A DNA stretch of 64,000 bases, taken from the NCBI GenBank assembly GCA_019637355.1, contig JAHBVT010000001.1, positions 2,821,192 to 2,885,191 on the forward strand. The letters are read 5' to 3'. The stretch comes from Gemmatimonadaceae bacterium. Lineage in GTDB: Bacteria > Gemmatimonadota > Gemmatimonadetes > Gemmatimonadales > Gemmatimonadaceae. Position numbers and translations under genes: made by a program. Positions within the stretch are counted from its first letter, which is position 1, and each line of letters starts with the position of its first letter. Shown here piece after piece: positions 26,765 to 42,214 of the stretch. The notes beneath the pieces were generated by a model. That model did not search any database and had not been told where the DNA came from. It saw only the letters and a list, made by a program, of their open reading frames with translations.

Positions 26765-27988
26765 TTAGGCCGAGCGTTTGCGCTTGGCGGGTGCGGTGGC
26801 GGTAGCAAGCATTGCCTGAATCGCGGTTCCGATTGCTCGTCCTAAGAGCGGCGGCACCGCGTTGCCAATTTGCACGAGCACCTTGGACTTGGGGCCCGCA
26901 AAGCGGAAGGAATCCGGAAAGCTCTGGAGCCGTGCCAACTCACGTGGCGTGAGCACGCGGGGGTGTCGATAATGCACGAACACGCCGCCGTGATTCTCCT
27001 TGACCGTGCGGCTTGGCTCGTCTGGCGGTTGGCGATACCACGCGTCTGAGAATCCTTCGTAGACGCTCCCGCCCACCGGCGTTTGCGCAAGCCGCTCCAC
27101 GAAGTCCGGCTTGTGCCGCGTGAACTCGTGGCTCCACTCCACGTTCTCAGGGGCGTCCTCAAGGTCGCCGATGGCATCTTGCGTCGTGACCCAAGGCAGG
27201 AGCGCGGCATCAAAGAGGGACGTCGCACTCGACGGCTCGCGGTGCGTTGGCTCCGGAAACACGATAGGCACGTCGAGCCGAGTACCGACGAATATCACAC
27301 GCTCGCGTCGCTGCGGAACACCGTAATCGGCCGCGTTGAGCACGCGATACTCCACGCGATACCCAAGCCGCTCCAGACGCGAGACAATGCGCTCCGGAAC
27401 TGACTCACGTAGCTTGGCCGCCATTCGCTGTAGCTGCGCGTACTCCGCGTTCACCTGCTGAAGGTGCTCCGCATCTGCCGCCGTGAACGGAATGCGATCC
27501 GTGTTCTTGTGTTGCTTGCGCAGCTTGCGAAGCCTGATCTGCTCCTTTTCCAGTACCTTGATGCGATCGAGCGTGGCTTGATCGGAGGCTGAGAGGTCGG
27601 TGCGATCGTGCTTCATTGAGAGCAGGCCCTTCACGTTCTCCATCACGAAGAACTTGGGGCGCAGCGCGTCGACCACGGCGACGTAGTCCTCAAAGAGATG
27701 CCCACGCTCGTCGTCCACGTCGCGCTTACCGGCTACGCTGTACGCCTGACAGGGCGGGCCGCCGACGACGACATCCACGTTTTGCGCGCGGGCGTAGGCG
27801 ATAATCTCTTCCCGGAGCGCGGGTTCGGTGATGGATCCGAGAAAGAAGCGTGAGCGCGGGTGGTTCAGCCGGTGCGTCTCCGCCGCCGATGCGGCGATAT
27901 CGTTGCCCGCGACGACTTCGAAGCCCGCGAGCTCGAGGCCGTAGCTCAGGCCGCCGCAGCCGGCAAATAGGTCGAGGACTCGGGGCAT
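26765..27988 (-). CDS. DNA (cytosine-5-)-methyltransferase
   Basis: C5 methyltransferase of 407 aa that makes 5-methylcytosine in a specific site. All main motifs are present: I (VLDLFAGCGGLSYGLELAGF), IV with catalytic Cys80 in VGGPPCQAYSVAGKRD, VI (FVMENVKG), VIII (QRRERVIFVGTR) and X (VQIGNAVPPLLGRAI). The target-recognition region lies between about residues 240 and 330 and does not reveal the site. It likely pairs with the nuclease candidate encoded just upstream on the same strand (28065-28808). Confidence 0.93.
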   Translation of the reverse strand: MPRVLDLFAGCGGLSYGLELAGFEVVAGNDIAASAAETHRLNHPRSRFFLGSITEPALREEIIAYARAQNVDVVVGGPPCQAYSVAGKRDVDDERGHLFEDYVAVVDALRPKFFVMENVKGLLSMKHDRTDLSASDQATLDRIKVLEKEQIRLRKLRKQHKNTDRIPFTAADAEHLQQVNAEYAQLQRMAAKLRESVPERIVSRLERLGYRVEYRVLNAADYGVPQRRERVIFVGTRLDVPIVFPEPTHREPSSATSLFDAALLPWVTTQDAIGDLEDAPENVEWSHEFTRHKPDFVERLAQTPVGGSVYEGFSDAWYRQPPDEPSRTVKENHGGVFVHYRHPRVLTPRELARLQSFPDSFRFAGPKSKVLVQIGNAVPPLLGRAIGTAIQAMLATATAPAKRKRSA

Positions 27989-28870: not shown

Positions 28871-30319
28871 ATGCCGGAAGTCTCAACCGCCGAGCTCCTC
28901 GCCGCACTCGAAGCCGACACCACGTTCGAGGCCGGCGCCCAGTTCCTGAAGATCGCGAGCGACTACTTCCAGCGGACCCGCAGCGGCGAGGGTCCCGTGT
29001 CCACGCGGCTCGATAAGCGAGCGCTGACCGCGCGCTTCGACGAGCCCATCCCGTTGGGGATGACGCCGCTCGCGGACGTCGCCAAGCGCATCGAGACCGA
29101 CGTGATGCCTGACGTGATCCAACTGATGCATCCCAAGTACATGGGCCATCAGGTGTCGGCGCCGCTGGCGGCGGCCGTGTGGACCGATGTGGTGATCAGC
29201 GCCATCAACAACTCCCAGGCCGTGTGGGAGATGAGTCCCGTGACCACCGTGATCGAGGAGCGCGTGATCGGGTGGATGTGCCAGCTCGCCGGCTACGGCC
29301 CTGGCGCCGCGGGAACGTTCACCAGCGGCGGCACCGAGGCCACGCTCACCGCGCTGCTCGCGGCGCGCGCGGCCAAGTACCCCGATGCCTGGCGCAGCGG
29401 CTGGTTCGGCAAGCAGCCGCCCGTGCTCGTGCACGGCGAGCACGCGCACTACGCCGTGCAGCGCGCGGCTGGCGTGATGGGGCTCGGGACCGACAACTGC
29501 ATCGCGGTGGGGAGCACGCCCGAGTTCAAGATGGATCCGGCCAAGCTGGCCGTGGTTTTGGAACAGCTACACCGCGAGGGGCGCGATGTGCTCGCCGTGG
29601 TCGCGACCGCGGGGTGCACTGCTGTCGGGGCGTTTGATGACCTGGAGGCGATCGCGGATCTCTGCGACCGCTATGGGCACTGGCTGCACGTGGACGGCGC
29701 GCACGGGGCGTCGGCGCTGCTCAGCGAGAAGCACAAGTGGCGGGTAAAGGGGATCCACCGGGCGCGGTCGCTGGCGTGGGATCCGCACAAGATGATGTTG
29801 ATGCCGCTGAGCGCGGGGGTGGTGTTGGTGCGGTCTGGTAAGGACTTGGAACGCGCGTTTGCTCAGTCGGCGCCGTATCTGTTTCATGGGGCGGACTCGG
29901 AGGTCGAGCTGAGTCCGGATTTGGGGAAGCGGAGTTTTCAGTGTTCGCGGCGGGCGGATGCGTTGAAGGTTTGGGTGGGGTTGCAGCGGTTTGGAGTTGC
30001 AGGGATTGGCGCTATGTATACTGCGCTCTGCGATTCCGCGGCGGACTTACACGCGAAGCTGGCGGCGAGGCCGGGTATCGATCCCCTGCACGTGCCGGAG
30101 TCGAACATTCTCGCTTGGAGCGTCGCAGAGAGCGACAGCGAGACCGTGGCGCGTATCCGGCGGGACATCCGCGAGGTGGATGGTGCGTGGCTGACCAGCA
30201 CGGTCATTGCTGGCACCCCCTGTCTTCGCGTGACGATGATGAACCTGCGAACGGACGCTACGGAGTCGTTAGCGTCGCGGCCACCGCGCGAACGGTCGCG
30301 ACCGCGCGTTCGAGATTGA
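28871..30319 (+). CDS. pyridoxal-phosphate-dependent decarboxylase, altered C-terminus
   Basis: Fold-type I PLP enzyme of the group II amino acid decarboxylase family. HVDGAHGASALL and SLAWDPHKMMLMP contain the cofactor Asp and the Schiff-base Lys307; TFTSGGTEATLTALL is the phosphate-binding region. The substrate amino acid is not clear. The last 20 or so residues (after VTMMNLRTDA) read into DNA that codes for AbiEii on the other strand. A diverged remnant of a normal family C-terminus lies 4.3 kb downstream at 34598-34753, so the gene end was probably replaced when the island formed. Confidence 0.87.
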   Translation: MPEVSTAELLAALEADTTFEAGAQFLKIASDYFQRTRSGEGPVSTRLDKRALTARFDEPIPLGMTPLADVAKRIETDVMPDVIQLMHPKYMGHQVSAPLAAAVWTDVVISAINNSQAVWEMSPVTTVIEERVIGWMCQLAGYGPGAAGTFTSGGTEATLTALLAARAAKYPDAWRSGWFGKQPPVLVHGEHAHYAVQRAAGVMGLGTDNCIAVGSTPEFKMDPAKLAVVLEQLHREGRDVLAVVATAGCTAVGAFDDLEAIADLCDRYGHWLHVDGAHGASALLSEKHKWRVKGIHRARSLAWDPHKMMLMPLSAGVVLVRSGKDLERAFAQSAPYLFHGADSEVELSPDLGKRSFQCSRRADALKVWVGLQRFGVAGIGAMYTALCDSAADLHAKLAARPGIDPLHVPESNILAWSVAESDSETVARIRRDIREVDGAWLTSTVIAGTPCLRVTMMNLRTDATESLASRPPRERSRPRVRD

Positions 30320-31130
30320 ACTCCGAGAACTCGCGGTCGCGAAGCATCGGTTTCAGTTGCGCCTCGAGCTGCTGGCGCAGTTCGTTCACCCGAGCGTCCG
30401 ACACGTCGACTGGACCCGTGCGCGGAGCTGCGAGCTTCTGGCGAAGCAGGGTGTGCAGATCGGCGTCCGCTGGGTCGAGCTTCCCCGAGCGCACTGCGTG
30501 ATCGACGTCGAAGTAGTCGCGGATCGCCACTTCGCGGCGACACATCGCCGCGCGCAGCTTCTCGGCCATCGTCTCTCGATAGGAGAGCGCGTCCACGGGG
30601 AACGATGCGACGAGCGCGGCACCGGTCACTGGATTGCGCAGCAGCGTCGCTGCGGGGCCACGCTCGATGGGCAGCAGCGTCGGCTCGGAGAGACTGATTT
30701 CGATGCGAACGGGCTCGGCTTGGCCATCCAACAGCGACTGATATTCGAGCGCCCCGTTGTACTGCCTGGACGAGTCTGCGCCGGTGAGTTGGTCACGGAC
30801 GCGGAACCCCGGCAGTGACGTCTCCGTGCGTGCGATGAGCGCCCGTGCGGTGGCGACCAGCGCACTTCGTTCGGTCCGTTTCGGCTCGCCGGACACGGAG
30901 ACGGTGAAGTCCAGATCCTCGCTCAGGCGGTAGAAGCGGTCGTGGATCTTGGCGAGGCAGGTGCCACCCTTGAACGTGAGCCCTGCACTGCCGCCGGCGA
31001 GGTACTCTAGCACGACGCTGCAGAAGTAGTCCTTCTCGATCAGTCGCGGGTTGAATCCCGTCTCGCGCGCGGTGTAGCCGATGGCTTGGTACATCAGCTC
31101 AGGATCCGTCTCGTGCAGGAGCATCGGCAC
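30258..31130 (-). CDS. AbiEii-type nucleotidyltransferase toxin
   Basis: Toxin of the type IV AbiE abortive-infection system, 290 aa. It has the DNA polymerase beta-like nucleotidyltransferase motif in LTFKGGTCLAKIHDRFYR and SEDLDFTVSV. These enzymes modify tRNA or other targets and stop growth during phage infection. The gene starts 2 nt after the AbiEi stop, and its 3' end overlaps the decarboxylase 3' end by 62 nt on the opposite strand. Confidence 0.92.
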   Translation of the reverse strand: MPMLLHETDPELMYQAIGYTARETGFNPRLIEKDYFCSVVLEYLAGGSAGLTFKGGTCLAKIHDRFYRLSEDLDFTVSVSGEPKRTERSALVATARALIARTETSLPGFRVRDQLTGADSSRQYNGALEYQSLLDGQAEPVRIEISLSEPTLLPIERGPAATLLRNPVTGAALVASFPVDALSYRETMAEKLRAAMCRREVAIRDYFDVDHAVRSGKLDPADADLHTLLRQKLAAPRTGPVDVSDARVNELRQQLEAQLKPMLRDREFSEFNLERAVATVRAVAATLTTP

Positions 31131-31132
31131 GC

Positions 31133-31933
31133 TCAGACCTCACCGTTGACGACCACACCCCAGCGGCGGCTCACCGTACCCCGCTTGGGCAGGGTCGGAA
31201 TCCACGGAATCGTGCTGCTCGATGCGCTGATCGCGGACTCCAGCTTCTTAAGCTGTGCGCTGCCGACGCCGGCACGTTCGAGCAGGACGCCGACGCGGCG
31301 GATGCTGCTCACGTCGCCGTAGCGCAGGGTGCTCGCAATCAACGACGCCGTCGATACGCGGCGCTCCTCGAGCTCGCGTAGGATCCAGCGATAGCCGCGC
31401 GGCAAACTGTCGAATCGCGACCAGTCGCGTACGGCGTCCACGAGGCTCCTGACTCTCGACGAGTACAGGGCGACGTCACCATCGCGGGTCGTGACGCTTT
31501 CGGTATCGCCAAGGCGATCGCCGGCCACCTTGATGAGCGTGAGCGAGACCGCACCGATGCTCCTGTCGCCGGAGTACAGGGTGTTGTAGACGCTGGTGCG
31601 GTTCGGAATCTGCTCCGTGAAGCCGTAGCGGTTGAATGCCTTCGGTCCGCAGATCTGGTAGCGTCCGTCGCGGTCGCGCAGGAGCGTGTTGATGGCAAGC
31701 GCTTCGTTCGGCGTCCACGCGCCGCCGAGCTGCAGCTCGCGCGGCACGAGGTAGAGCCCGCGTCGTACTTGGGCGATGAGACCCGACTTTGCGAGTCGGG
31801 TGTAGAGTTCCCGCTCTTGCTTTGGCGTGATGGCCAAGGGTGCCACGAGGTCGCCCGTGCGCAGCTCACGAAGCTTGCGGAGCTGTGTCCAGGCGAAGAG
31901 TTGGCGCTCGAGGTTCCCGAGGCGGCGTTTCAT
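31133..31933 (-). CDS. AbiEi-type antitoxin / transcriptional repressor
   Basis: Antitoxin of 266 aa with an N-terminal winged-helix domain (LAITPKQERELYTRLAKSGLIAQVRRGLYLVP) and a C-terminal domain typical of AbiEi (NEALAINTLLRDRDGRYQICG, FNRYGFTEQIPNRTSVYNT). AbiEi proteins bind inverted repeats in their own promoter. A matching repeat lies at 31948-31980. It is first in the two-gene AbiE operon. Confidence 0.9.
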   Translation of the reverse strand: MKRRLGNLERQLFAWTQLRKLRELRTGDLVAPLAITPKQERELYTRLAKSGLIAQVRRGLYLVPRELQLGGAWTPNEALAINTLLRDRDGRYQICGPKAFNRYGFTEQIPNRTSVYNTLYSGDRSIGAVSLTLIKVAGDRLGDTESVTTRDGDVALYSSRVRSLVDAVRDWSRFDSLPRGYRWILRELEERRVSTASLIASTLRYGDVSSIRRVGVLLERAGVGSAQLKKLESAISASSSTIPWIPTLPKRGTVSRRWGVVVNGEV

Positions 31934-31947
31934 CCGTGCATAATAAT

Positions 31948-31980
31948 ACTCTGTAATTGCGTGTCAAGCAATTAGAGAGT
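31948..31980. promoter_or_regulatory. inverted repeat upstream of abiEi, candidate operator
   Basis: ACTCTGTAATTG and CAATTAGAGAGT form a 12-bp inverted repeat matching at 11 of 12 positions, separated by 9 bases. The AT-rich element begins 15 bases upstream of the AbiEi ATG at 31933. AbiEi-family antitoxins are known to repress through such paired repeats, so this is the likely operator and promoter. Confidence 0.72.
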
Positions 31981-32026
31981 TATATTGTGCAAGGCGCGCC
32001 TCAGCTGCTGAGCTCGTGGACGCGGA

Positions 32027-32383
32027 TCACTCCGCCACCTGCGCGTAATTGTCGCCCGTATCCGGCGGCAGCTCGTACGACAGATAATAGGAGAGCGTCC
32101 GCACCTCTCCGCCGTGCAGGTGAATTTTCACCCCGACCTCGAACATCCCCCACGTCCAGATCGTGATTCCGAACTTGTTGTCGCGATTCGCGGAGCGGCG
32201 GACGCGGCGGCGAAAGCTCGGGTCAAGCTCGTACTCCACCTCTTCGATGCGGTCCAGTTCCTCTGGCGTCGCTTCTATCCAAAGTCCGACGTGGTAGTGT
32301 TCACGCCCACCCTCGGAAGGGACCCAGAACTTGATCTGGCCATCAGCGTTCCGGATTACCTGATTTTTCACTGAGTATGGCAT
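32027..32383 (-). CDS. prokaryotic YEATS (pYEATS) domain protein
   Basis: Protein of 118 aa made almost wholly of one YEATS-like beta-sandwich. The signature is EEVEYELDPSFRRRVR, then FGITIWTWGMFEVGVKIHLH, matching the V-x-Y-x-L-x-P-S-F and W-G-x-F pattern of YEATS domains. The N-terminal part (FWVPSEGGREHYHVGLWI) gives the first strands. Eukaryotic YEATS domains read acylated lysines; the ligand of bacterial ones is not established here. It is last in a three-gene operon with a SLATT membrane protein and an alpha/beta hydrolase, with 16 nt after the SLATT gene. Confidence 0.8.
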   Translation of the reverse strand: MPYSVKNQVIRNADGQIKFWVPSEGGREHYHVGLWIEATPEELDRIEEVEYELDPSFRRRVRRSANRDNKFGITIWTWGMFEVGVKIHLHGGEVRTLSYYLSYELPPDTGDNYAQVAE

Positions 32384-32399
32384 CTGGAGTCTCCTCGTG

Positions 32400-32993
32400 T
32401 CAGCTCGCGCGCACGCGCACGACGGGAATCATTCCCGGCACGCTTTGCGGAAGCGCGTCCCGGCCCTCGGACTCGGCGAGCGGCGCGGCGGCAGTCGCGC
32501 GGGCCAGGAGTACGGCGATCAGCGATTGCCGGAAGGCTTCCTCGGCAAACGCTCGGTCCGCAGGCTCTACGACGATCGGCTCGCGCATCGCCTGTAGCAT
32601 CCGCGTCGACGCCTGACGAATGGGGGCATCGCCGCCGTCGAAGTCGAGCTCGCTGGCGACACTCAGGGCGTAGGATTCGAGCGTTCCCTTGACCTCCTTC
32701 AGCTCGCTCATACACTCCCAGAACTTGCGAAGCATCTCAGCAGGAGAGAACTGCTGCTGGATGGCCGCGAGGGTGGATGTGACGAGGGCCGCGCTGACGG
32801 TGACCCATTTCCAGTCCAGGCCTGCCGCGGCCGCCCCCGTGACGATGCCGAGGATCACCGTGGTCCATCTGAGCGCCGCACTCCGCCTCGCCTCGCGGTG
32901 TAGCCGCCGCTCGTAGGCCGAGAGGTGTGCTGTCGCGTCCGACCAGGTATGCTGCGCCGCAAGCAGCAGCGTCCGCTGGCGTTCCGAGATCAT
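32400..32993 (-). CDS. SLATT-domain two-transmembrane protein
   Basis: Protein of 197 aa with a charged N-terminal helix, two adjacent membrane segments (about residues 42-60, TTVILGIVTGAAAAGL, and 64-80, VTVSAALVTSTLAAI), and a cytoplasmic helical tail. This layout is that of the SLATT family, proposed pore-forming effectors in nucleotide-sensing and other conflict systems. It lies between the hydrolase (11-nt gap) and the pYEATS gene (16-nt gap). SLATT assignment rests on architecture and context, as the family is poorly conserved. Confidence 0.72.
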   Translation of the reverse strand: MISERQRTLLLAAQHTWSDATAHLSAYERRLHREARRSAALRWTTVILGIVTGAAAAGLDWKWVTVSAALVTSTLAAIQQQFSPAEMLRKFWECMSELKEVKGTLESYALSVASELDFDGGDAPIRQASTRMLQAMREPIVVEPADRAFAEEAFRQSLIAVLLARATAAAPLAESEGRDALPQSVPGMIPVVRVRAS

Positions 32994-33004
32994 CTCGCCA
33001 CCTC

Positions 33005-34441
33005 CTATCGCCTCACCGGCTTGTCAGAGAGCCACACGTAATCGCACTTGCGGTCGACGCCAATGTCGACGAGCGTCGTCGTGTTCGGGAACAGCAGTTG
33101 CGGTGTGCTTCGCCGCCTGTGCGGAGCGGACGTCGCGAGCGCGACGGCGTGCAGCTTGTCGTTCTCGTAGCGAATGCCGCCATCCACCGGCGGCACGTAC
33201 ACGCGCATCGTGAGCGCCACATCCTGGTCGAGGGCTTGCGCGGCGTCCTTGATGATCTTCTTGACCGCCTGCGGATCGACGAGGAACCTGCGGTACGCGG
33301 CATTGCTTCGGTTCTCGTGGCCTTCAGCCACGAGGGCCTTGTGGGCCGCCTCACCAAACCTTCGCTCCTCCGCGCTGTCTCTGGTGGACGTGCGCCAACC
33401 CGCGGAGTCTAGGCGCGAGAGCTTGACGATGCCGAAGCTGAGCGTGAAGTCGCGCACGGGAACGTCGTGATCGTCCCGTACGCGGACCAGGAACTGCTGG
33501 TATTGTGGGTACGCGACATTCTGATAGGTCCTGTCAGTGACCGCTCGTACGTCCTGCTGCAAGCGCCGAAACGAGTCTGCATCCCGTGTGCGGAGCGCGC
33601 GCAGCACCAGTTGCTCGAGTTCCGTGGGCTGCACTCGCCGCGCGTCGAACCGCGACTTGATCGTCGTGTGGTTCAGGCCCTCGAGCACTCCGAATGCGAA
33701 GTCGTGCGCGTGGGAGTGCCCGCTCCAGCGATACGGCGGCGCATCTGCGTCGTCGCCGTAGTGGGTCGGGGTCACTCGCAAGAGCACCGCGTTGAGCGGC
33801 GCGCCCGCGATGACAATCGTGCCGTCGGTTCCCGGCTTCGTGACCATTCCGGGGATTCCCTTGTACGGCTCGACGCCCGTCAGCACCGTGAGCTGAATGC
33901 CGTCGGGCGAGAAGTGGTTGGCATCGCCAAGCGTATCGCGCTCCGCAAGCTGCCACTGGTAGGGACTCGCAAGCTCCAGCCCGTCGAGCAGCGTCCGGCC
34001 CGTTTCGAGGAAGTTGCCGAACTCCCAGCGTCCTTTGACGATCGACCCGAGAAATGATTTGCCGCGGTGCGCCAGCGGCGATCCGAAGTTCGCCGGGGCG
34101 AGCATCACCAGCCGCCGGATGGGGCAGTCCGCGATGCGATTGCCGTCTCGCAAGTAGTAGCGCCAGATCCAGTGTCGGATGACCAATCCGCCCGTGGAGT
34201 GCACGATAACGTTGATCTGTCGCTTCGCCGTGCCGTCGGCACCGATGATGCCGTGCTCGATGAGGCGTTCGTGCAGCCCGTCGACGATGTCGTCGAAGGT
34301 GAGCGCGTCCTCGCGTGACTCGTACTCGCCGAAGAGGATCTCACGGACGTCGGCGATATTGTTGGCGTGCAGGAAGGCCTTGAGGTCGGTGAAGGACTTC
34401 GCCGTGTCGCTCCAGCCGTGGACGAGAATCGTCGTGGTCAT
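33005..34441 (-). CDS. alpha/beta hydrolase (lipase/PGAP1-like) with C-terminal beta domain
   Basis: Predicted esterase or lipase of 478 aa. TILVHGWSDTAKSF is the oxyanion-hole region and the nucleophile is Ser82 in VIVHSTGGLVIRHW. Candidate His residues lie in WSGHSHAHDF. After about residue 320 a separate domain, probably beta-rich (QFLVRVRDDHDVPVRDFTLSFG ... VALTMRVYVPPVDGG region), follows. The ATG at 34441 is chosen over a far-upstream frame that would cross the promoter. It is first in the operon with SLATT and pYEATS genes. No signal peptide is seen, so it should be cytoplasmic, where it could attack the inner membrane. Confidence 0.82.
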   Translation of the reverse strand: MTTTILVHGWSDTAKSFTDLKAFLHANNIADVREILFGEYESREDALTFDDIVDGLHERLIEHGIIGADGTAKRQINVIVHSTGGLVIRHWIWRYYLRDGNRIADCPIRRLVMLAPANFGSPLAHRGKSFLGSIVKGRWEFGNFLETGRTLLDGLELASPYQWQLAERDTLGDANHFSPDGIQLTVLTGVEPYKGIPGMVTKPGTDGTIVIAGAPLNAVLLRVTPTHYGDDADAPPYRWSGHSHAHDFAFGVLEGLNHTTIKSRFDARRVQPTELEQLVLRALRTRDADSFRRLQQDVRAVTDRTYQNVAYPQYQQFLVRVRDDHDVPVRDFTLSFGIVKLSRLDSAGWRTSTRDSAEERRFGEAAHKALVAEGHENRSNAAYRRFLVDPQAVKKIIKDAAQALDQDVALTMRVYVPPVDGGIRYENDKLHAVALATSAPHRRRSTPQLLFPNTTTLVDIGVDRKCDYVWLSDKPVRR

Positions 34442-34597
34442 GAGTGGCCTCTGGTGGCGGGTCTTGGCCACAATACCGCATCCCTTGGTCGAGGCCGCAA
34501 GTGCAGTTTTGTGCCAGGGCGGAGTGCGGCACGGTGCCGTCACCCCGTACAAGCCGAATTCGGCCGTCGTGCCCCGGGCGCTCGGTGATGCAGGCCG

Positions 34598-34753
34598 GTG
34601 AAGGTTGCGGAGCTCCGTTCCGAGCTGAACCTTAGTGAGGCTGCGTGGATTACCAGCACGTCGATTGCGGGTATGTCCTGCCTGCGGGTTACGATGATGA
34701 ACCCGCGCAGTACCGCAGCTGACCGTCAACGACTCATCACTGCTCTCTCCTGA
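34598..34753 (+). pseudogene. remnant of a PLP decarboxylase C-terminus
   Basis: The frame 34598-34753 encodes about 51 codons resembling the end of the decarboxylase at 28871: VAELRSEL, AAWITSTSIAG and CLRVTMMNPRS align with VARIRRDI, GAWLTSTVIAG and CLRVTMMNLRT there. It ends in TGA one base before the start of the Sau3AI-like gene. A TGA lies just upstream in frame, so only the tail remains. Identity is partial, so it is not a fresh duplication; it probably marks an old recombination edge. Confidence 0.75.
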
Positions 34754-34754
34754 G

Positions 34755-36122
34755 ATGGCGACAACCTACGCGCAGTTCGATGGTGACTCCGCATCGGAGG
34801 CTGAGGTCCTCGAGCACGCGCGGAAACTGAAGGGCAAGCGACTGCGCGATGTCATTCCGGCAAGCGGACGCGTCTCGGAATCGAAGCCCGGGGACAAGGG
34901 TGCGGTGGGGCAGCTCGTCGAGCGCGCGTTCGGCCTCCCGCGCAGCAGCGACCAACGACCTGACTTTGGTGCGGCGGGCATCGAGCTGAAGGTCGTTCCA
35001 TTAAAGCGCAGCGCGAGGTCCGTTCGCTCCAAAGAGCGCACCAGCGTCACCATGATCGACTATGGTGCGTTGGTCGACGAGTCGTGGCCGACGGCCAAGG
35101 TTCGCAAGAAGCTCCAGAAGATTCTCTTTGTCTTCTGCTATCACGTCGACAAGGGTAACCCGCTCGACACGGTCATCGAAGCGACCGTGCTCTGGACGCC
35201 GCAGGCGGACCTGCTGCCTCAGCTCGAGAGTGACTGGTCCGTCGTGCAACAGAAGGTCCTCGATGGTCTCGCGCACGAGATCTCTGAGGGCGATGGGCGC
35301 GTCCTCGGCGCTGCGACGAAGGGAGCTGGCGGCGGGAGGCTCGTTGACCAGCCGCGGAACCCGGCGATTCGCGCGAAGCCTCGCGCGTGGGCGCTGAAGC
35401 CTGCGCTCACTACCTGGCTCTACGAGAAGGAGCGTGCCGGCAAGCTTCCCGTTGTCACGCTTCGTGATGCGCTCAAGCTGAAGGCGACCGAGAGCTTCGA
35501 GGATGCTGTGCTGCGGCGGCTGCAGGCGTACGAAGGAAGGACGCTCGGCCAGGTCGCAAAGCAGCTCAACGTTCCGCTCAGCAAGGCGAAATCCGGGGCG
35601 GCTGTGCTTGTCCGCCGTGCTATCGGCGTTCTCGATGACAAGGCGTCAATCGAGGAGTTCAGGGAGCGCGGCATTCAAATCAAGATCGTCCCCATCTCCC
35701 CGGCGGGTCGGCCGTATGAGGCTATGTCCTTCCCGAAGTTCAACCATATGGAAGTTTGGAAGGAGGAGTGGGAGGAAAGCGATCTGCTGCAGCAGCTCAA
35801 TCGGATGTTGATTGTTCCGCTTGTCCGGAGTGCGCGGAAGACGCCTAAGGAGAAGCAGGTCTGGGGGCGCGCATTCTTCTGGTCGCCGACCGCCGATCAA
35901 CTGAACGGTATCGAGTGCGAGTGGCGGGACTATTGTCGCCGCATTCAGGCGGGCGAGGCCAACCAACTTCCGGGGGCCAGCCAGACCAAGTACATCCACG
36001 TTCGACCGCATGCGCGGGACAGTCGGGACACTGAGCAGGCACCTCGGGTCGGGCAGGTGGTGAAGAAATGCTTTTGGTTGAACCAGGACTTCATCGCACA
36101 CATACTAGAATCCGGCTCCTGA
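34755..36122 (+). CDS. Sau3AI/MutH-family type II restriction endonuclease
   Basis: Restriction endonuclease of 455 aa. The N-terminal MutH-like domain has KGAVGQLVERAFG and RPDFGAAGIELKVVPL, giving Glu56, Asp70, Glu77 and Lys79. These match the MutH catalytic set in spacing and even in number. A second half, starting near residue 220 (LRDALKLKATESFEDAVLRR and SIEEFRERGIQIKIVPIS), is a degenerate MutH-like copy, as in Sau3AI. Sau3AI cuts GATC; the same site here is inference. The cognate enzyme is probably the C5 methyltransferase at 39063-40415. Confidence 0.87.
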   Translation: MATTYAQFDGDSASEAEVLEHARKLKGKRLRDVIPASGRVSESKPGDKGAVGQLVERAFGLPRSSDQRPDFGAAGIELKVVPLKRSARSVRSKERTSVTMIDYGALVDESWPTAKVRKKLQKILFVFCYHVDKGNPLDTVIEATVLWTPQADLLPQLESDWSVVQQKVLDGLAHEISEGDGRVLGAATKGAGGGRLVDQPRNPAIRAKPRAWALKPALTTWLYEKERAGKLPVVTLRDALKLKATESFEDAVLRRLQAYEGRTLGQVAKQLNVPLSKAKSGAAVLVRRAIGVLDDKASIEEFRERGIQIKIVPISPAGRPYEAMSFPKFNHMEVWKEEWEESDLLQQLNRMLIVPLVRSARKTPKEKQVWGRAFFWSPTADQLNGIECEWRDYCRRIQAGEANQLPGASQTKYIHVRPHARDSRDTEQAPRVGQVVKKCFWLNQDFIAHILESGS

Positions 36123-36222
36123 CTTTGACTCGCGGCGCAAACAACCCCGGGGCACAACTTCTCAGGCCGATTTCGTCACGGAAACCTCCGGTCCAACCCA
36201 GCGCACGTCCGGACTGATCAGT

Positions 36223-38265
36223 CTAAGAGCCTCGGCGCCTCGCCGGTGTACGCGACTGCCGAGTCAGCGGACCGGATTCAGCGACACTTACTCGGTCACT
36301 CGAGCTCTCCATGAGTGCAGGCGGTAGATACTCGCCATGCATGTCGCGGAGATACTTCACGGCGCTCTCGTCTGACGCCTCATACTGCAGGGCGTCCTGG
36401 AAGAACCGCAAACGCGCCTTACAGTCCGCAACAACCTGCCCCCAGGACTTCACCCAGATCTCGATGTTGTCGGAAGAGTATGTTTGGCCTGGCTGAAGGC
36501 GTTGTTGCGACGCCAGCTGCGACACCTCATCGGTCAGCTCATTCGACACGGCCCAGAATATCCATCGCGTGTTAGTGTCGCGGAACCGCTCATCCTTAGC
36601 AACTGCAAACGCATACGACTGCAGCTGTGAATGAACAGACAGAGACACTTTCACGCGTGGTCTCTTGAGTTCGACAACCAAGTGCTCTCGGGCGTTTGGG
36701 TTGGCCTGGGGCACCTTTCGCGAGAGCATCAGGTCTACTATTCCCATGCTCCCATCCTCTCTTTGGACCGGCCGCCCGTCTTCTTCTGCATCCTTTCTTA
36801 GCAGATGAAGGTGCTTCGCGAGAACTTCGTCCAGTGATTTATCACTGGCGGTCAAATGGAACTGTTCTCCGAAGATCCAGGTGTTCTTCTCCACAATCTT
36901 GTGAAGCTGGCTGCGCTCAAGTAGCTGGTCTTTCGAGTTCTTTTCAAAGACGAGCCTCTCGAGACCAAGGACAAAGTCTAGTCGGTCGGCTACCAAACGG
37001 GCCGCGCTGATGATTGAGGAGAGAGAGGTCCTGTCGAGCAGGGATGCCAGTTGCTGTTGTTTGACCAACGGCAGCTCTAGCACCTCTGAGAGGATGCGGC
37101 GCGCGACGTCTGGCGAGGCCTCTACTGCTTGCCGCAACAATCGCAGCTGCAGGCGCTGCGTGCGATCGTCTGAATCTGCGAAGCTCGGGAGATACTCTGA
37201 GACGTTGAGGGCGACGAGATCGAAGACCTGACGCTCTGCGACTTCAACCGGAGATTTCGCCTCTCCTTGAAACGGATAGATATCCCGCTTCTTCCATCCA
37301 TCCACGAGCTCTACCGCTCTCTCAGCGCTCCGACTCCGAAAATGGGACTTAAGCGCCTGCTTGCCGGCCTCGACGAGCCTCCCTGTTCCTTCAGAGAGAT
37401 CGTCGAGTTCCAGTTGGTTGTTCTCATGCAACTCGCGTATGTACGCAGACCGCAAGTACGCCGTGAAGTCAAATCCGGGCGCTTGAATTTTGGGCGCCAC
37501 GCGATGGTAGGTGAAACCATCCTCATCGCACAGAAATAGCGAGCGTTCAGAGGGAATCGACCATTCGATGATGACGAGCGTGGCAGACACGCTGCGACCG
37601 TCATCGAGAGAGACTGGCCCAATCTCGTATTCGTGGTTTGCGATTTCGAGAGCAGCGGGATCGACCCGAGCTCCATCATAGGTCACCCGTGTGTCAGAAT
37701 ACTGCCGCAGGTAAATTGCAAGCTGCTCGGCCACCTCCACTCGCGCCTTGTCGCCCTGCAAGCGGAACTCTTTCGAGAATCCTGAAATCTCCACACAAGT
37801 GCCAGTGGGAGTGTCGTCAGGCACCTCCCGAACATCGCTAAGAAGGAATGTGCCAAGCCTGTCTCTAGACCCCGAGATTGAGAATTGAATCCGACGGTCC
37901 CCATCCTGCGCTACTGTCGACCATTCGACTCGGTCGCCGAGTGCGAACGCCCGGAATCGGCCCTTCCCAGCCCGACCGTGCAGGATGCGACCTCTCTTCC
38001 GGGAGCGGCTTCCAAATTTTTTCCAGGAACCACCCAGGCGTCCGAACGAGTGCTCGGCGTCGTGCGGCAACATTCCCAAGCCATTGTCAACTACTCGAAT
38101 AGTATCGAGCGCCCCAAGAAGGCTTCTCTCAAATATGACAGATACCTCCGTCGCATCTGCATCTAGGCCATTCCACACAAGCTCAGCCAGTGCGAGGATC
38201 GGCTTCTTCACGGCCGACATGCGCTGCAAGTGGTCTGGCTGAACTGCGACTGAAATTGTCTTCAC
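36223..38265 (-). CDS. GHKL ATPase (MORC/MutL-like) fused to a PD-(D/E)XK nuclease
   Basis: Protein of 680 aa. The N-terminus is a GHKL ATPase: Glu28 and Asn32 in ALAELVWNGLDADAT, Asp60 in VVDNGLGM, and GRAGKGRFRAFALG near 96-109. A middle region with alpha-helical repeats follows. The C-terminus has a Shedu-like/DUF4263-type nuclease core: QLHKIVEKNTWIFGEQF, Asp511 in GIVDLMLSR, and Glu532 and Lys534 in HLVVELKRPRVKV. MORC-like ATPases are known companions of C5-methyltransferase restriction systems. It lies between the Sau3AI-like enzyme (convergent) and the DUF4145 gene. Base content is clearly less GC-rich than the core, with many CATG sites, so it was probably transferred. Confidence 0.82.
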   Translation of the reverse strand: MKTISVAVQPDHLQRMSAVKKPILALAELVWNGLDADATEVSVIFERSLLGALDTIRVVDNGLGMLPHDAEHSFGRLGGSWKKFGSRSRKRGRILHGRAGKGRFRAFALGDRVEWSTVAQDGDRRIQFSISGSRDRLGTFLLSDVREVPDDTPTGTCVEISGFSKEFRLQGDKARVEVAEQLAIYLRQYSDTRVTYDGARVDPAALEIANHEYEIGPVSLDDGRSVSATLVIIEWSIPSERSLFLCDEDGFTYHRVAPKIQAPGFDFTAYLRSAYIRELHENNQLELDDLSEGTGRLVEAGKQALKSHFRSRSAERAVELVDGWKKRDIYPFQGEAKSPVEVAERQVFDLVALNVSEYLPSFADSDDRTQRLQLRLLRQAVEASPDVARRILSEVLELPLVKQQQLASLLDRTSLSSIISAARLVADRLDFVLGLERLVFEKNSKDQLLERSQLHKIVEKNTWIFGEQFHLTASDKSLDEVLAKHLHLLRKDAEEDGRPVQREDGSMGIVDLMLSRKVPQANPNAREHLVVELKRPRVKVSLSVHSQLQSYAFAVAKDERFRDTNTRWIFWAVSNELTDEVSQLASQQRLQPGQTYSSDNIEIWVKSWGQVVADCKARLRFFQDALQYEASDESAVKYLRDMHGEYLPPALMESSSDRVSVAESGPLTRQSRTPARRRGS

Positions 38266-38352
38266 TGCTCACCAAGAGATTGCAGGGTCACCATGGTCAA
38301 CAGCCTCAAATGTTTTTCGCGTACCTAGATGCGGCGCCACTCCCGCACAACC

Positions 38353-38889
38353 TTACAACGATGTCTCGCCTTTGGGTGTAGCGCGCCGCGGAATGCTGGT
38401 TGAGAGCTCAGGCGCCTGGGTTGCCACAACAGTAGCATGCAACAAATTCTCGACGATGTCGAGGATAACGGTTAGCTCGGAACCGTTTGGGCTGTAGCCC
38501 CTGTGAGCTGCTGCATTCCCCGCATCGAGTGCGGTTCCGAGCGACTGCCGTGAACGGCGACTTAGATAGCCATCATTTTCAAGTTGCTCAAGTCTTGCAG
38601 CGAAGGTCCCGGCGTCTCCAACTGTTCTGACGATGAACAAGTCTATCAAGGCGCGGCATCCCATAGCTGCAAGTCGACGACTGTCAGTGCCAAGCGCTTC
38701 GTACACTTCGATGAGCAGTTCCTGCTCTGCCTCAGGAAGGTTGGAAATCCAAACCGGCAAGCGTCGGAAGAGTCGCGGTGGGAAGAACGACACTTCAGAC
38801 TCGCCATCATTCCACTCTGAGAAGAAGTACTCACGTCTAACGCACACGCTCTCGCACCCGCGACACTCGAGCATCGCGTATCGCGTCAC
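38353..38889 (-). CDS. DUF4145-domain protein
   Basis: Protein of 178 aa. Its C-terminal two-thirds fits DUF4145: RRLAAMGCRALIDLFIV near residue 75 and GNAAAHRGYSPNG near 120. The N-terminus has CRGCESVC, a possible zinc-binding motif. DUF4145 proteins often sit in restriction and defence loci, and the role is unknown. It lies between the GHKL-nuclease and the methyltransferase on the same strand, and shares their lower GC. Confidence 0.78.
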   Translation of the reverse strand: MTRYAMLECRGCESVCVRREYFFSEWNDGESEVSFFPPRLFRRLPVWISNLPEAEQELLIEVYEALGTDSRRLAAMGCRALIDLFIVRTVGDAGTFAARLEQLENDGYLSRRSRQSLGTALDAGNAAAHRGYSPNGSELTVILDIVENLLHATVVATQAPELSTSIPRRATPKGETSL

Positions 38890-39062
38890 CCACGAGATGC
38901 TTTCGTGACCGTGGGTTGCTGAACCTGTTTAGCGCCTAGTGGCAACAACATCGTGACGCGTTTCCGAGTCGCAGTCATTGCAGTGCGCTCGCTCCATCGC
39001 AGAGCTCGAAGCAGCTGGAGTGGTTTCGCTCACTGGACCCATCCCTTGCTTGACGGAGAAGC

Positions 39063-40415
39063 TCATGTGGCATTTTGTACAGCTTTACTGCGCAGACGCA
39101 CAGCCTCTCGAACAGCAACTTCGACGCCGATAGCTTCGACCAAACCGACCACGAGCGCATTACCCATACAAAACGCCCGCTGTGTTTCGGTCATCTCAGT
39201 TGCGGTGTGATCATCAGGAAAGCCGTTGAGGCGCTCGAGTTCAACGGGCGTAAGTCTCCGGTATCCGCCGTCCTTCGCAGCCACGATGTGCTTCGACCGA
39301 CTCGGCGACGCTCCTCCCTCGGAGGTGAGAATCGTGCGCGAAGGTCGATCCACCGGATCCGGAAATGGCAGCGCCCCCTCAGTGTAGAAGTACTTGAACC
39401 CGCTCGCCTTGTGGACGCGCTCTTCCGCTTTCGATCCCTTGGCGGTCCTCCACTTGGCCAGCGCAGCGTCGATCACGAAGAACTGTTTCGGCACCGCGCC
39501 GCGCTCAAGCACATCTCGCAGCAGCAGCGAACGCCCCACAAAGTTTGGCTTGGGATTATAGGTCCAGACGATGCGCTTCCGAGAGGCGCCAATCCCGATA
39601 GGGCGGACGTACCCAGCCTGCCCGAACTTCGTACGCTCGACGCCGCGCCCGAAATCAGCTGACAGCTCGTGTAGTTCTCCGGTCAGCTCGAAATGCTCAG
39701 TCTCCGAGAGATCTAAACGATTGTCTGAGTGCACGGGAAGCGAATTGGCGAACACCCCACTCTCAAAGACAACGTCCGCACCGCTCTTCTTCGACTTGGC
39801 CTTCCCCGCCAGCTGCGCCACGATGAACACACGCCGCCGCCGCTGCGGGAACCCATAGTCCGCCGCATTCACCACGCGCCATTCGACCTCGTACCCAAGG
39901 TCGCACAGACTCGCGAGCATAATCGCAAAGTCACGCCCACGCTGCGTCGCCGGCGACTTGATCAACCGATCGACATTCTCCAGAAACACCCACTGCGCGG
40001 GCTTCTTCTTGTCCTTGAGGATGCGCAGCAGCCGATGAATCTCCCACCACAGCACACCCTTCTTTCCTTGAAGGCCTGCCGACTGATTCAACGGCTTCGC
40101 GACAGAGTAGTCCTGGCAGGGAAACCCGCCGACGACCATATCGATGTCTGGCAGCTTCCGCTCGCCACGCTCGACCTCGTCGAGTACCTTCGCAATGTCT
40201 TCGTTGCTGTGCCCTTCCGTACCGAACCGCTCGACGTAGCACCGCGACGCAAACTGTTTCGACGGCGTGCCAGGCGGCTCCCACTGACTGCTAAACACCG
40301 TGACGAAGTCCGGCGACGCGGCTTCGAGTCCGAGACGAAACCCTCCCACACCGGCAAACAGCTCTGCAACGCGAATCTGTTTGCGACTCGACTTCGTCTT
40401 TGGCTTCGCGGGCAT
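39063..40415 (-). CDS. DNA (cytosine-5-)-methyltransferase, Sau3AI-type
   Basis: C5 methyltransferase of 450 aa. Motif I is VAELFAGVGGFRLGLEAA; motif IV is VVGGFPCQDYSVAKPL with Cys100; FLENVDRL is motif VI; QRRRRVFIVAQ is motif VIII; and MGNALVVGLVEAIG is motif X. It probably protects against the Sau3AI-like endonuclease encoded 4 kb downstream on the other strand. The start at 40415 opens into a basic tail and then motif I; an ATG-like start at 40448 is also possible. It is divergent from the MarR gene. Confidence 0.93.
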   Translation of the reverse strand: MPAKPKTKSSRKQIRVAELFAGVGGFRLGLEAASPDFVTVFSSQWEPPGTPSKQFASRCYVERFGTEGHSNEDIAKVLDEVERGERKLPDIDMVVGGFPCQDYSVAKPLNQSAGLQGKKGVLWWEIHRLLRILKDKKKPAQWVFLENVDRLIKSPATQRGRDFAIMLASLCDLGYEVEWRVVNAADYGFPQRRRRVFIVAQLAGKAKSKKSGADVVFESGVFANSLPVHSDNRLDLSETEHFELTGELHELSADFGRGVERTKFGQAGYVRPIGIGASRKRIVWTYNPKPNFVGRSLLLRDVLERGAVPKQFFVIDAALAKWRTAKGSKAEERVHKASGFKYFYTEGALPFPDPVDRPSRTILTSEGGASPSRSKHIVAAKDGGYRRLTPVELERLNGFPDDHTATEMTETQRAFCMGNALVVGLVEAIGVEVAVREAVRLRSKAVQNAT

Positions 40416-40511
40416 ACTTTCTCTCGGCAAGGCGGGTGAAGGCCTCAATATAGGCCTTCGATCAATACCGAGGAAACACCGAATCTTGCCCTGCGCCAGC
40501 GCCCAAACGAG

Positions 40512-41025: not shown

Positions 41026-41105
41026 CCCGCCCAGCGGCCTAGGCCATACATATAGAAGGACCCCCAAATCCCGGCCCCCCTTGCGGGGAACCTTTCGAAG
41101 GCCTA

Positions 41106-41124
41106 TTATCTTAGTTGTGAGACG
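41106..41124. promoter_or_regulatory. MhqR-like operator upstream of the dioxygenase
   Basis: TTATCTTAGTTGTGAGACG shares TTATCTTA-N-T-NN-TGAGA-N-G with the site at 40512-40530, 20 bases before the dioxygenase ATG. The dyad is weaker on the right (AGAC for AGAT). A shared regulator is the simplest reading. Confidence 0.68.
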
Positions 41125-41143
41125 TTTACCAGTAGAGGTATTT

Positions 41144-42214
41144 ATGACCCGCTCCGCACCCACCACACTCGGCTTCCACCACATCACGCTCGTCGCCTCC
41201 GACGCGCGCCGAACCCTCGCGTTCTACCACGAGGTCCTCGGACTCCAGCTGGTGAAGCAGACGGTCAACTTCGACGACCCGTCGTCGTACCACCTGTACT
41301 TCGGCAACGCCGAGGGCGCGCCGGGCACGCTGGTGACCTTCTTCGAATGGCCGCAGGCCCCGCGCGGACGCTTCGGCGTCGGCGGCGTGCATCACCTGGC
41401 CTTCTCGACGCCGACCTACGAGACGCTGCTGAAGTGGAAGCGCCGGCTGCAGGACCTGGGACTCGCAGTCTCGGGCCCGATGCCCCGCGGCTACTTCACC
41501 TCGCTGTACTTCCGCGATCCGGATGGACAGGTGCTGGAGATCGCCACGGCCGGCCCGGGCTACGACATCGACGAACCGATGTCGGAGTTGGGCCAGCGAG
41601 TACTCGGCCAGCAGCCGCATCAGCTGCCGGGCACGCGCGACGACGCGGCGATCGCACGCACGACGCATCCGGAGCCGGTGCCGACGATCACGCCCGATAT
41701 GGCACTCACGGGCCTGCACCACATCACGGGAATGACGGACGACATCGAGCGCACTAGCGACTTCTATGAGGAAGCACTCGGACTTCGTCTAGTGAAGAAG
41801 ACGATCAACCAGGACGATCCGGACACGCCGCACTGGCTCTGGGCCAACTACGACGGCACGCGCGTGCTGCCCGGTAGCTCGTGGACACTGTTCGGCTGGA
41901 ATCCGCGTTCACCTCACGCACGCAACGGCGTCGGCCAGACGCATCACGTCGCCTTCCGCGCGAAGGATGACGACGAGCAACTGGCCTGGCGCGATCACCT
42001 CACTTCGATCGGGCTGCAAGTCTCGCCCGTGATGGATAGGCAGTACTTCAAGAGCATCTACTTCCAGGCGCCAGACGGGCAGTTGCTGGAGATCGCGACG
42101 GATGGGCCAGGATTCGCGGTGGATGAAGCTGTACTCGGCGCGGAGCTCAAGCTTCCGCCGTGGCTCGAATCCGAGAGAACGCAGATCGCGGAAGCTCTCG
42201 GGCCGCTCAAGTAG
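41144..42214 (+). CDS. ring-cleaving dioxygenase, glyoxalase/VOC type (MhqO/MhqA-like)
   Basis: Two VOC domains of about 150 residues each, 356 aa in all. The first opens GFHHITLVASDARRTLAFYH and the second LTGLHHITGMTDDIERTSDF; the metal-binding His and Glu are in HHIT and LLEIATDGPG. Such enzymes open hydroquinone or catechol-like rings and protect against quinones. AGAGG lies 7 bases before the ATG. It is controlled, by inference, by the MhqR-like protein upstream. Confidence 0.9.
   Translation: MTRSAPTTLGFHHITLVASDARRTLAFYHEVLGLQLVKQTVNFDDPSSYHLYFGNAEGAPGTLVTFFEWPQAPRGRFGVGGVHHLAFSTPTYETLLKWKRRLQDLGLAVSGPMPRGYFTSLYFRDPDGQVLEIATAGPGYDIDEPMSELGQRVLGQQPHQLPGTRDDAAIARTTHPEPVPTITPDMALTGLHHITGMTDDIERTSDFYEEALGLRLVKKTINQDDPDTPHWLWANYDGTRVLPGSSWTLFGWNPRSPHARNGVGQTHHVAFRAKDDDEQLAWRDHLTSIGLQVSPVMDRQYFKSIYFQAPDGQLLEIATDGPGFAVDEAVLGAELKLPPWLESERTQIAEALGPLK

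Follow-up and report, generated by a model that had tools for sequence, protein, structure and literature searches.

The 64,000-nucleotide stretch of DNA analysed here (the window) comes from a Gemmatimonadaceae bacterium with a genome of 3.15 Mb (G000; assembly GCA_019637355.1, contig JAHBVT010000001.1, positions 2,821,192 to 2,885,191), and this study concerns three adjacent genes on its minus strand. The first (33005-34441) encodes a PlaB-like alpha/beta hydrolase of 478 residues, the second (32400-32993) a SLATT-like protein of 197 residues and the third (32027-32383) a stand-alone prokaryotic YEATS (pYEATS) protein of 118 residues. The hydrolase and SLATT-like genes are separated by 11 nucleotides and the SLATT-like and pYEATS genes by 16, as described in an original prediction that had been made from the sequence. 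Both inner starts, those of the SLATT-like and pYEATS genes, directly follow a ribosome site of the GGAGG or GAGGAG type, identified by eye.

The 118-residue protein matches the Pfam family pYEATS (PF20305) with 83.4 bits (E 1.1e-23; cut-off 26.9 bits) and the YEATS family PF03366 with E 8e-7. It contains both YELDPSF and WGMFEVGV, the motifs from which a YEATS signature had been called, and we are confident from its sequence that it is a pYEATS domain. A profile of 14 pYEATS domains matches 46 distinct solved YEATS-type sequences (E 1.4e-8 to 2e-4), including YEATS2, AF-9, ENL, YEATS4, TAF14 and Yaf9; we take TAF14, Yaf9 and silencing protein 5, which is also among the matches, to be proteins with YEATS domains. 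By sequence alignment, Ser56, Phe57 and Trp78 fall in the pocket columns of the eukaryotic YEATS readers, presumably those that form the acyl-lysine sandwich. When the alignment of the 14 pYEATS domains is counted by eye, the Ser56 column holds Ser or Thr in 13, the Phe57 column is aromatic in 12 and the Trp78 column is aromatic in 13. The likeness to the eukaryotic readers (YEATS2, AF-9, ENL, YEATS4/GAS41, TAF14) consists of the profile match and the aligned Ser/Thr, Phe and Trp/Tyr pocket columns, whereas the window offers no histone context and the LH motif of the readers is LD in its protein.

The hydrolase matches the phospholipase PlaB (6zth) with a phmmer E of 2.1e-30, and a profile of 21 hydrolase sequences matches PlaB with E 1.6e-45 over profile positions 4-335. 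This sequence match reaches only from about residue 4 to 335, and the likeness of the C-terminal domain comes from the predicted fold. An AlphaFold2 model built from the 21-sequence alignment has a mean predicted local distance difference test score (pLDDT) of 78.3 and a predicted template modelling score (pTM) of 0.79, with pLDDT below 50 at residues 127-132, 137-144 and 207-217. Among the 50 matches listed by Foldseek for this model are seven PlaB chains (6zth/6zti) with TMq 0.71-0.74 over 516-531 columns; the remaining ones, mainly lipases and other hydrolases, reach a TMq of 0.34 at most. Because the PlaB matches span this many columns, the C-terminal domain is PlaB-like too, and the hydrolase is, by sequence and by model, a full-length relative of PlaB. 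This fits the lipase function that had been suggested for it. The Ser hydrolase motif VIVHSTGG, also noted earlier, is found at Ser82. Ser82 (HSTGG), Asp206 (GTDG) and His258 are unchanged in all 21 sequences and form a candidate triad, with roles read from the motifs and with the stretch 207-217 among the poorly modelled segments. In both the phmmer and the profile alignments the Asp206 column is occupied by Asn in PlaB, so on this alignment the acid residue of PlaB must be located elsewhere. PlaB is described in a review as a cell-associated phospholipase A/lysophospholipase A (PMC9867486). The two proteins share the whole-length fold, the HSTGG nucleophile motif and the C-terminal domain, and they differ at Asp206, in sequence (22-24 % identity in the structural alignments) and in the setting of the window gene, whose partners in its operon, within a defence hotspot, are SLATT-like and pYEATS genes.

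The 197-residue protein is probably a SLATT-like membrane protein and not SLATT proper. It has two weakly hydrophobic stretches, at about residues 41-59 and 62-78, and shares with SLATT proteins a predicted short helix and two-stretch hairpin in the same register. In a search with our own 14-sequence SLATT profile it came third among the distinct sequences, with 8.4 bits and E 0.083 (807 background open reading frames (ORFs), two of them its own copies). A two-sequence SLATT profile gave no match to it and was discarded. SLATT proteins have partners in conflict loci, among them TIR, nucleotide-related effectors and DRT9 (PMC7159879; for DRT9, PMC12483538; for TIR, PMC9503650). The partner in the window would instead be a pYEATS protein, and no adjoining nucleotide-signal gene was recognised.

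The genes lie within a variable defence hotspot (30320-40511), as seen on comparing the interval between a pyridoxal phosphate (PLP)-decarboxylase gene (28871-30319) and a glyoxalase-type gene (41081-42214) with two same-genus genomes, G128 and G004. In G128 the near flanks are 85 % and 82.5 % identical to the window in DNA sequence and enclose about 3.6 kb of different content (L149 10437-14075; a DUF262-like gene, named by eye, and a 670-residue ORF), versus about 10.5 kb in the window. G004 retains the restriction gene and methylase at the corresponding region (L150 1-8600), with Sau3AI-type restriction, helix-turn-helix (HTH) and Fic-like genes named by eye; tblastn with the three genes, AbiE, the HATPase and the DUF4145 protein found nothing there at E 1e-3 in the 19 kb covered, which stop short of the left flank. 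The region is thus variable within the genus and carries defence genes, which bears out the placement next to AbiE in a defence island. The AbiE genes, abiEi (31133-31933) and abiEii (30258-31130), are both on the minus strand, and abiEi starts 93 nucleotides beyond the end of the pYEATS gene. Because a promoter-like site (TTGACA-16-TATTAT, 11 of 12 matches, minus strand, 31940-31967) precedes abiEi, AbiE is probably a unit separate from the trio. On the other side, a Sau3AI/MutH-type restriction endonuclease gene (34755-36122, plus strand) diverges from the trio. Guanine-plus-cytosine content, profiled from 14 to 52 kb, is 64-65 % across the trio, 56-60 % at 36-40 kb and 66-71 % in the parts left of 25 kb and right of 46 kb.

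The pYEATS family is rare in the sampled phyla. PF20305 was matched in 4 of 298 genomes of the window's own phylum (three besides its own; 3 of the 4 over the cut-off), 1 of 194 in the phylum of Brevifollis, 5 of 199 in that of a Phycisphaerales record and 5 of 238 in that of Mucilaginibacter (4 over the cut-off), and in none of 244 genomes from the phylum of a record titled uncultured cyanobacterium. The resulting set of 14 proteins, the window's included, retains G1080 (23.7 bits, under the cut-off), which is alignable with the others along its whole length, and omits a match in G005 (24.8 bits, internal stop). As whole proteins, G494 (26.3 bits) lies narrowly below and G812 (27.0 bits) narrowly above the cut-off. 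A hydrophobic span of at least 1.6 is present in 8 of the 13 non-window pYEATS proteins (G272, G494, G856, G1080, G1156, G1166, G1173, G1182), against 43 of 127 (34 %) background ORFs of at least 150 residues from the same loci. The span of the G804 protein, at 1.54, is a borderline case, since those of the SIR2- and TIR-fused proteins reach 1.50 and 1.52, and the hydrophobic N-terminus of the G821 protein (2.04) was taken as a signal peptide and left out of the count. Gene pairs are more telling. The only other stand-alone pYEATS gene, in G897, overlaps by 4 nucleotides the end of a preceding gene whose product has two strong spans (2.56 and 3.12), an order that matches the window, and in G1182 a 92-residue membrane-protein gene overlaps by 4 nucleotides a gene in which a transmembrane (TM) segment is fused to pYEATS. 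These fusions and pairs, found in three other phyla and in a further genome from the window's phylum, give some support to a link between pYEATS and membrane parts. SLATT_1 matches occur in 4 of the 14 pYEATS genomes, the window's among them; in the other three they lie on contigs other than that of the pYEATS gene.

Some pYEATS domains are joined to domains of other kinds, in two cases to domains of immune type (SIR2 and TIR). G048 encodes a SIR2-pYEATS fusion (PF13289, E 8e-23), a candidate immune effector, and G812 a TIR-pYEATS fusion (PF13676, E 3e-25); of ten pYEATS proteins run through PADLOC, these two fusions were the only ones with matches. The G821 protein (L096 5211-7106) combines a signal-peptide-like start, a papain-type peptidase and repeated pYEATS, with an FHA-like gene nearby (by eye), and is possibly an exported use of the domain. 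The G048 fusion lies at L047 6745-8406 (the same as L042 88-1749), near subtilase-like and metallo-beta-lactamase-like genes named by eye. In G812 a same-strand run (L099 5299-8429) comprises the TIR-pYEATS gene, another, short ORF that is TIR-like by eye, a 179-residue ORF and, about 120 nucleotides downstream of the fusion, a 444-residue ORF with weak alpha/beta-hydrolase similarity (best Pfam E 0.047, PDB E 0.15) that showed no link to PlaB. Proteins from two phyla (G494, L087 913-1737; G856, L091 934-1734) have a hydrophobic hairpin and a common ITKFK..G.EFE motif followed by pYEATS, with no PADLOC match.

We read the whole operon, with a probability of roughly 0.4, as a pYEATS sensor with a SLATT-like membrane partner and a recruited PlaB-type lipase effector, placed in a defence hotspot. 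The pYEATS protein would be a cytosolic sensor that binds an acyl group or another small ligand in its conserved aromatic pocket, and its partner at the inner membrane would be the SLATT-like protein, because membrane segments are in many cases the fusion or gene partners of pYEATS domains elsewhere. The PlaB-type phospholipase would stay inactive until triggered and would then degrade membrane lipids, and the infected cell would undergo growth arrest or lysis ahead of phage release. The lipase may be an exchangeable effector and no fixed member of a three-gene family; what would attach it to the pYEATS/membrane system is the operon layout. This seems the most economical reading. In its favour are the operon-like spacing with its ribosome sites, the variable surroundings with AbiE and restriction genes, the pYEATS assignment with its mostly aromatic pocket columns, the PlaB likeness of the hydrolase, the membrane spans, gene pairs and SIR2 or TIR fusions of other pYEATS proteins, and the hydrolase-like ORF downstream of the TIR-pYEATS gene. 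That pYEATS domains are sensors is not a new idea, since Burroughs and Aravind reportedly predicted prokaryotic YEATS domains to be immune sensors (2020, J Bacteriol). The window protein shares with the pYEATS domains of such predicted immune systems the Pfam domain, which in other genomes keeps company with membrane segments, TIR or SIR2; it differs in standing alone, with the genes for a SLATT-like protein and a PlaB-type lipase ahead of its own.

NAD(H), or nicotinamide adenine dinucleotide in its two forms, reportedly keeps PlaB as a less active tetramer when bound, and the title of 6zti gives PlaB in complex with thio-NAD. This bears on two further explanations. According to the first, which we consider improbable, the three genes are a membrane-attack immune operon: pYEATS would read an infection-linked acyl mark and, by way of the SLATT-like membrane partner, unleash an NAD(H)-restrained PlaB-type lipase, with NAD loss during infection or the acyl signal as trigger for the destruction of lipids; NAD loss is what TIR and SIR2 domains, fused to pYEATS in other genomes, bring about. 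According to the second, the pYEATS and SLATT-like proteins are inhibitors that restrain the phospholipase at the membrane until infection leads to loss of the complex, which would free it. The tight spacing and the small last gene, as well as the NAD(H)-held state of PlaB, are in keeping with such a toxin-inhibitor pair, but relatives of the hydrolase exist with no such partner nearby, and pYEATS elsewhere is fused to effector-type domains or membrane segments and is not a separate inhibitor gene, G897 being the exception. We regard this arrangement, too, as unlikely.

Several results weigh against the reading of the operon as a sensor, membrane partner and lipase. The structural check that had been proposed for all three proteins gave a clear result for the hydrolase but none for the pYEATS protein: the single-sequence pYEATS model, although beta-rich, has a pLDDT of 52.4 and is too poor for use, and Foldseek with this model gave no YEATS structure among the 50 matches listed. 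The assignment of the second gene to SLATT proteins with two membrane spans is only partly sustained. Similarity to SLATT is there, but the protein scores 30.7 bits (E 2.5e-7) with the NCBIfam model SLATT_1, under the cut-off of 41, and is likewise under the cut-offs of Pfam DUF4231 (E 5.5e-4) and SLATT_1 (E 0.0097), with a Pfam score of 16.4 versus 26.3 bits. The NCBIfam cut-off is strict, because SLOG-SLATT-type proteins, of which three were picked out by eye in the phylum, fall short of it as well (27-37 bits with the same model). The hydrophobic stretches are weak, with Kyte-Doolittle peaks of mean 1.45 over 19 residues and up to 1.97 over 15, and hhalign of the protein with our 14-sequence SLATT profile aligned residues 24-101 in the right register at a probability of 8 %. 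Membrane spans are only modestly commoner in pYEATS proteins than in the background (34 %), a suggestive and not a strong difference. A shared transcript is suggested by the gene spacing; in a scan for promoters and terminators, no promoter site turned up before the hydrolase gene, a weak one (9 of 12 matches) lay where the pYEATS gene starts, and no terminator was seen. No PADLOC model is matched by any of the three proteins.

The other points on this side come from the search for the trio elsewhere. Hydrolase matches were found in 26 of the 298 phylum genomes (the window's own included; the last two weak and partial), and a wider contig scan, for which three aligned hydrolases served as query, yielded 28 loci with best-segment identities of 41-63 % (41-50 % in all except one), in records named Balneolaceae, Fodinibius, Brevifollis, Limisphaera, Persephonella, Aquificota, Bacteroidetes, Phycisphaerales and others; one of them, L083, is on the same contig as the in-phylum locus L005. 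In none of the 28 did phmmer, at E 1 or better, match an ORF to either the SLATT-like or the pYEATS protein. The pYEATS profile was then run on all ORFs from 65 loci (25 in-phylum, 12 wider versions of these and the 28 others), which amount to about 52 distinct hydrolase genes, and none carries a pYEATS gene nearby (best score E 0.23); the flanks of the in-phylum loci measure about 1.5 kb at most, with wider stretches for 12 of the 25, two of the 28 are cut within the gene and others are short-flanked. The same profile recovers each of the 14 pYEATS loci (E 1.8e-20 at worst), by construction, as it was built from them. Nor is there a pYEATS match at E 1e-3 in any of the 23 hydrolase-bearing genomes (those of the 28 loci minus L075, L079, L080, L083 and L085), a scan in which the controls were silent too and for which the power of the model rests on the pYEATS scans of four phyla.

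The SLATT-like protein has no second genome among the 298 of the phylum and no homologue in plasmids or IMG/VR, bar one weak match in G236, judged spurious, that lies inside a 369-residue ORF which by eye is peptidase-like. A contig scan with the pYEATS protein alone, which sees close relatives only, returned no relative, and pYEATS had no match in plasmids, phages or IMG/VR. An alignment of group-A pYEATS proteins found no viral relative. The hydrolase alignment had no match in IMG/VR; two distant PlaB-type matches were found on plasmids. A motif scan picked out 8 contigs of IMG/VR, and phmmer at E 10 detected pYEATS in none of them. No second instance of the trio was met in the loci and genomes searched, some of the loci being short-flanked. 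It is a single occurrence in this sample, and the trio as a conserved or recurrent system is rejected on the present data; the original prediction had itself named the absence of the triplet elsewhere as a refutation of its system reading.

These absences argue for a narrower explanation, in which the SLATT-like and pYEATS proteins alone are a conflict pair of sensor and membrane effector, and the hydrolase is a housekeeping-type gene that landed upstream and is merely co-transcribed. About 52 distinct relatives of the hydrolase lack pYEATS in the flanking DNA covered, as do the 23 genomes, and the closest relative, at 69 % identity in the same-genus genome G128, has neither a SLATT-like nor a pYEATS gene beside it. 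The combination of TM segments with pYEATS, on the other hand, recurs, and no PlaB-type gene was seen alongside. Most of the 28 loci stand beside non-defence genes (by eye), and neighbours repeat within clades, such as ferredoxin-oxidoreductase-like and antiporter-like genes in several Balneolaceae and a ferritin-like gene in L078-L080 (also by eye). Because the neighbours are mostly non-defence genes, an ordinary cell function is suggested for the relatives. However, the 11-nucleotide gap and the ribosome site speak for selected co-expression with the hydrolase, and the window copy lies inside the hotspot whereas the G128 copy is sited elsewhere in its genome, outside it. We hold this two-gene explanation to be somewhat less likely than the full operon. 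Two membrane-protein genes were noted next to PlaB-type hydrolases: in Fodinibius sediminis (L062 11436-12284) one is convergent with the hydrolase gene, has no Pfam match and ranks second in our SLATT profile (E 0.031 / 0.16), and in Mucilaginibacter pineti (L077 9414-9968) one lies 11 nucleotides upstream and has no Pfam family above the cut-off.

The mostly non-defence contexts of PlaB-type genes, with the lack of a PADLOC model for the trio, would also suit an operon for lipid turnover or envelope stress that sits in the variable region by chance and has no defence role. Against this stand the AbiE and restriction systems of that region and the fusions of pYEATS to SIR2 and TIR, and we give such an operon a small chance. 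If the reading that we prefer holds, YEATS domains in bacteria would do the sensing for immune systems that act on membranes, an immune setting would exist for relatives of the eukaryotic acyl-lysine readers, and a PlaB-type phospholipase, known as a pathogen's cell-associated enzyme, would become a candidate self-directed immune effector. The pocket residues Phe57 and Trp78 and the invariant Ser82 make the sensor and lipase ideas directly testable. In the open-access literature searched, neither a description of the trio nor a paper on prokaryotic YEATS domains was found.

Other genes of the window deserve mention. Two C-5 cytosine DNA methylases are encoded at 26765-27988 and 39063-40448, the second inside the hotspot near the Sau3AI-type gene. 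Between the restriction gene and this methylase lies a gene (36223-38265) for a GHKL-ATPase protein with partial similarity to the BbrUII/HgiDII restriction enzymes and to MutL, and to the left of the hotspot a 613-residue DUF2779 protein is encoded at 23253-25094.

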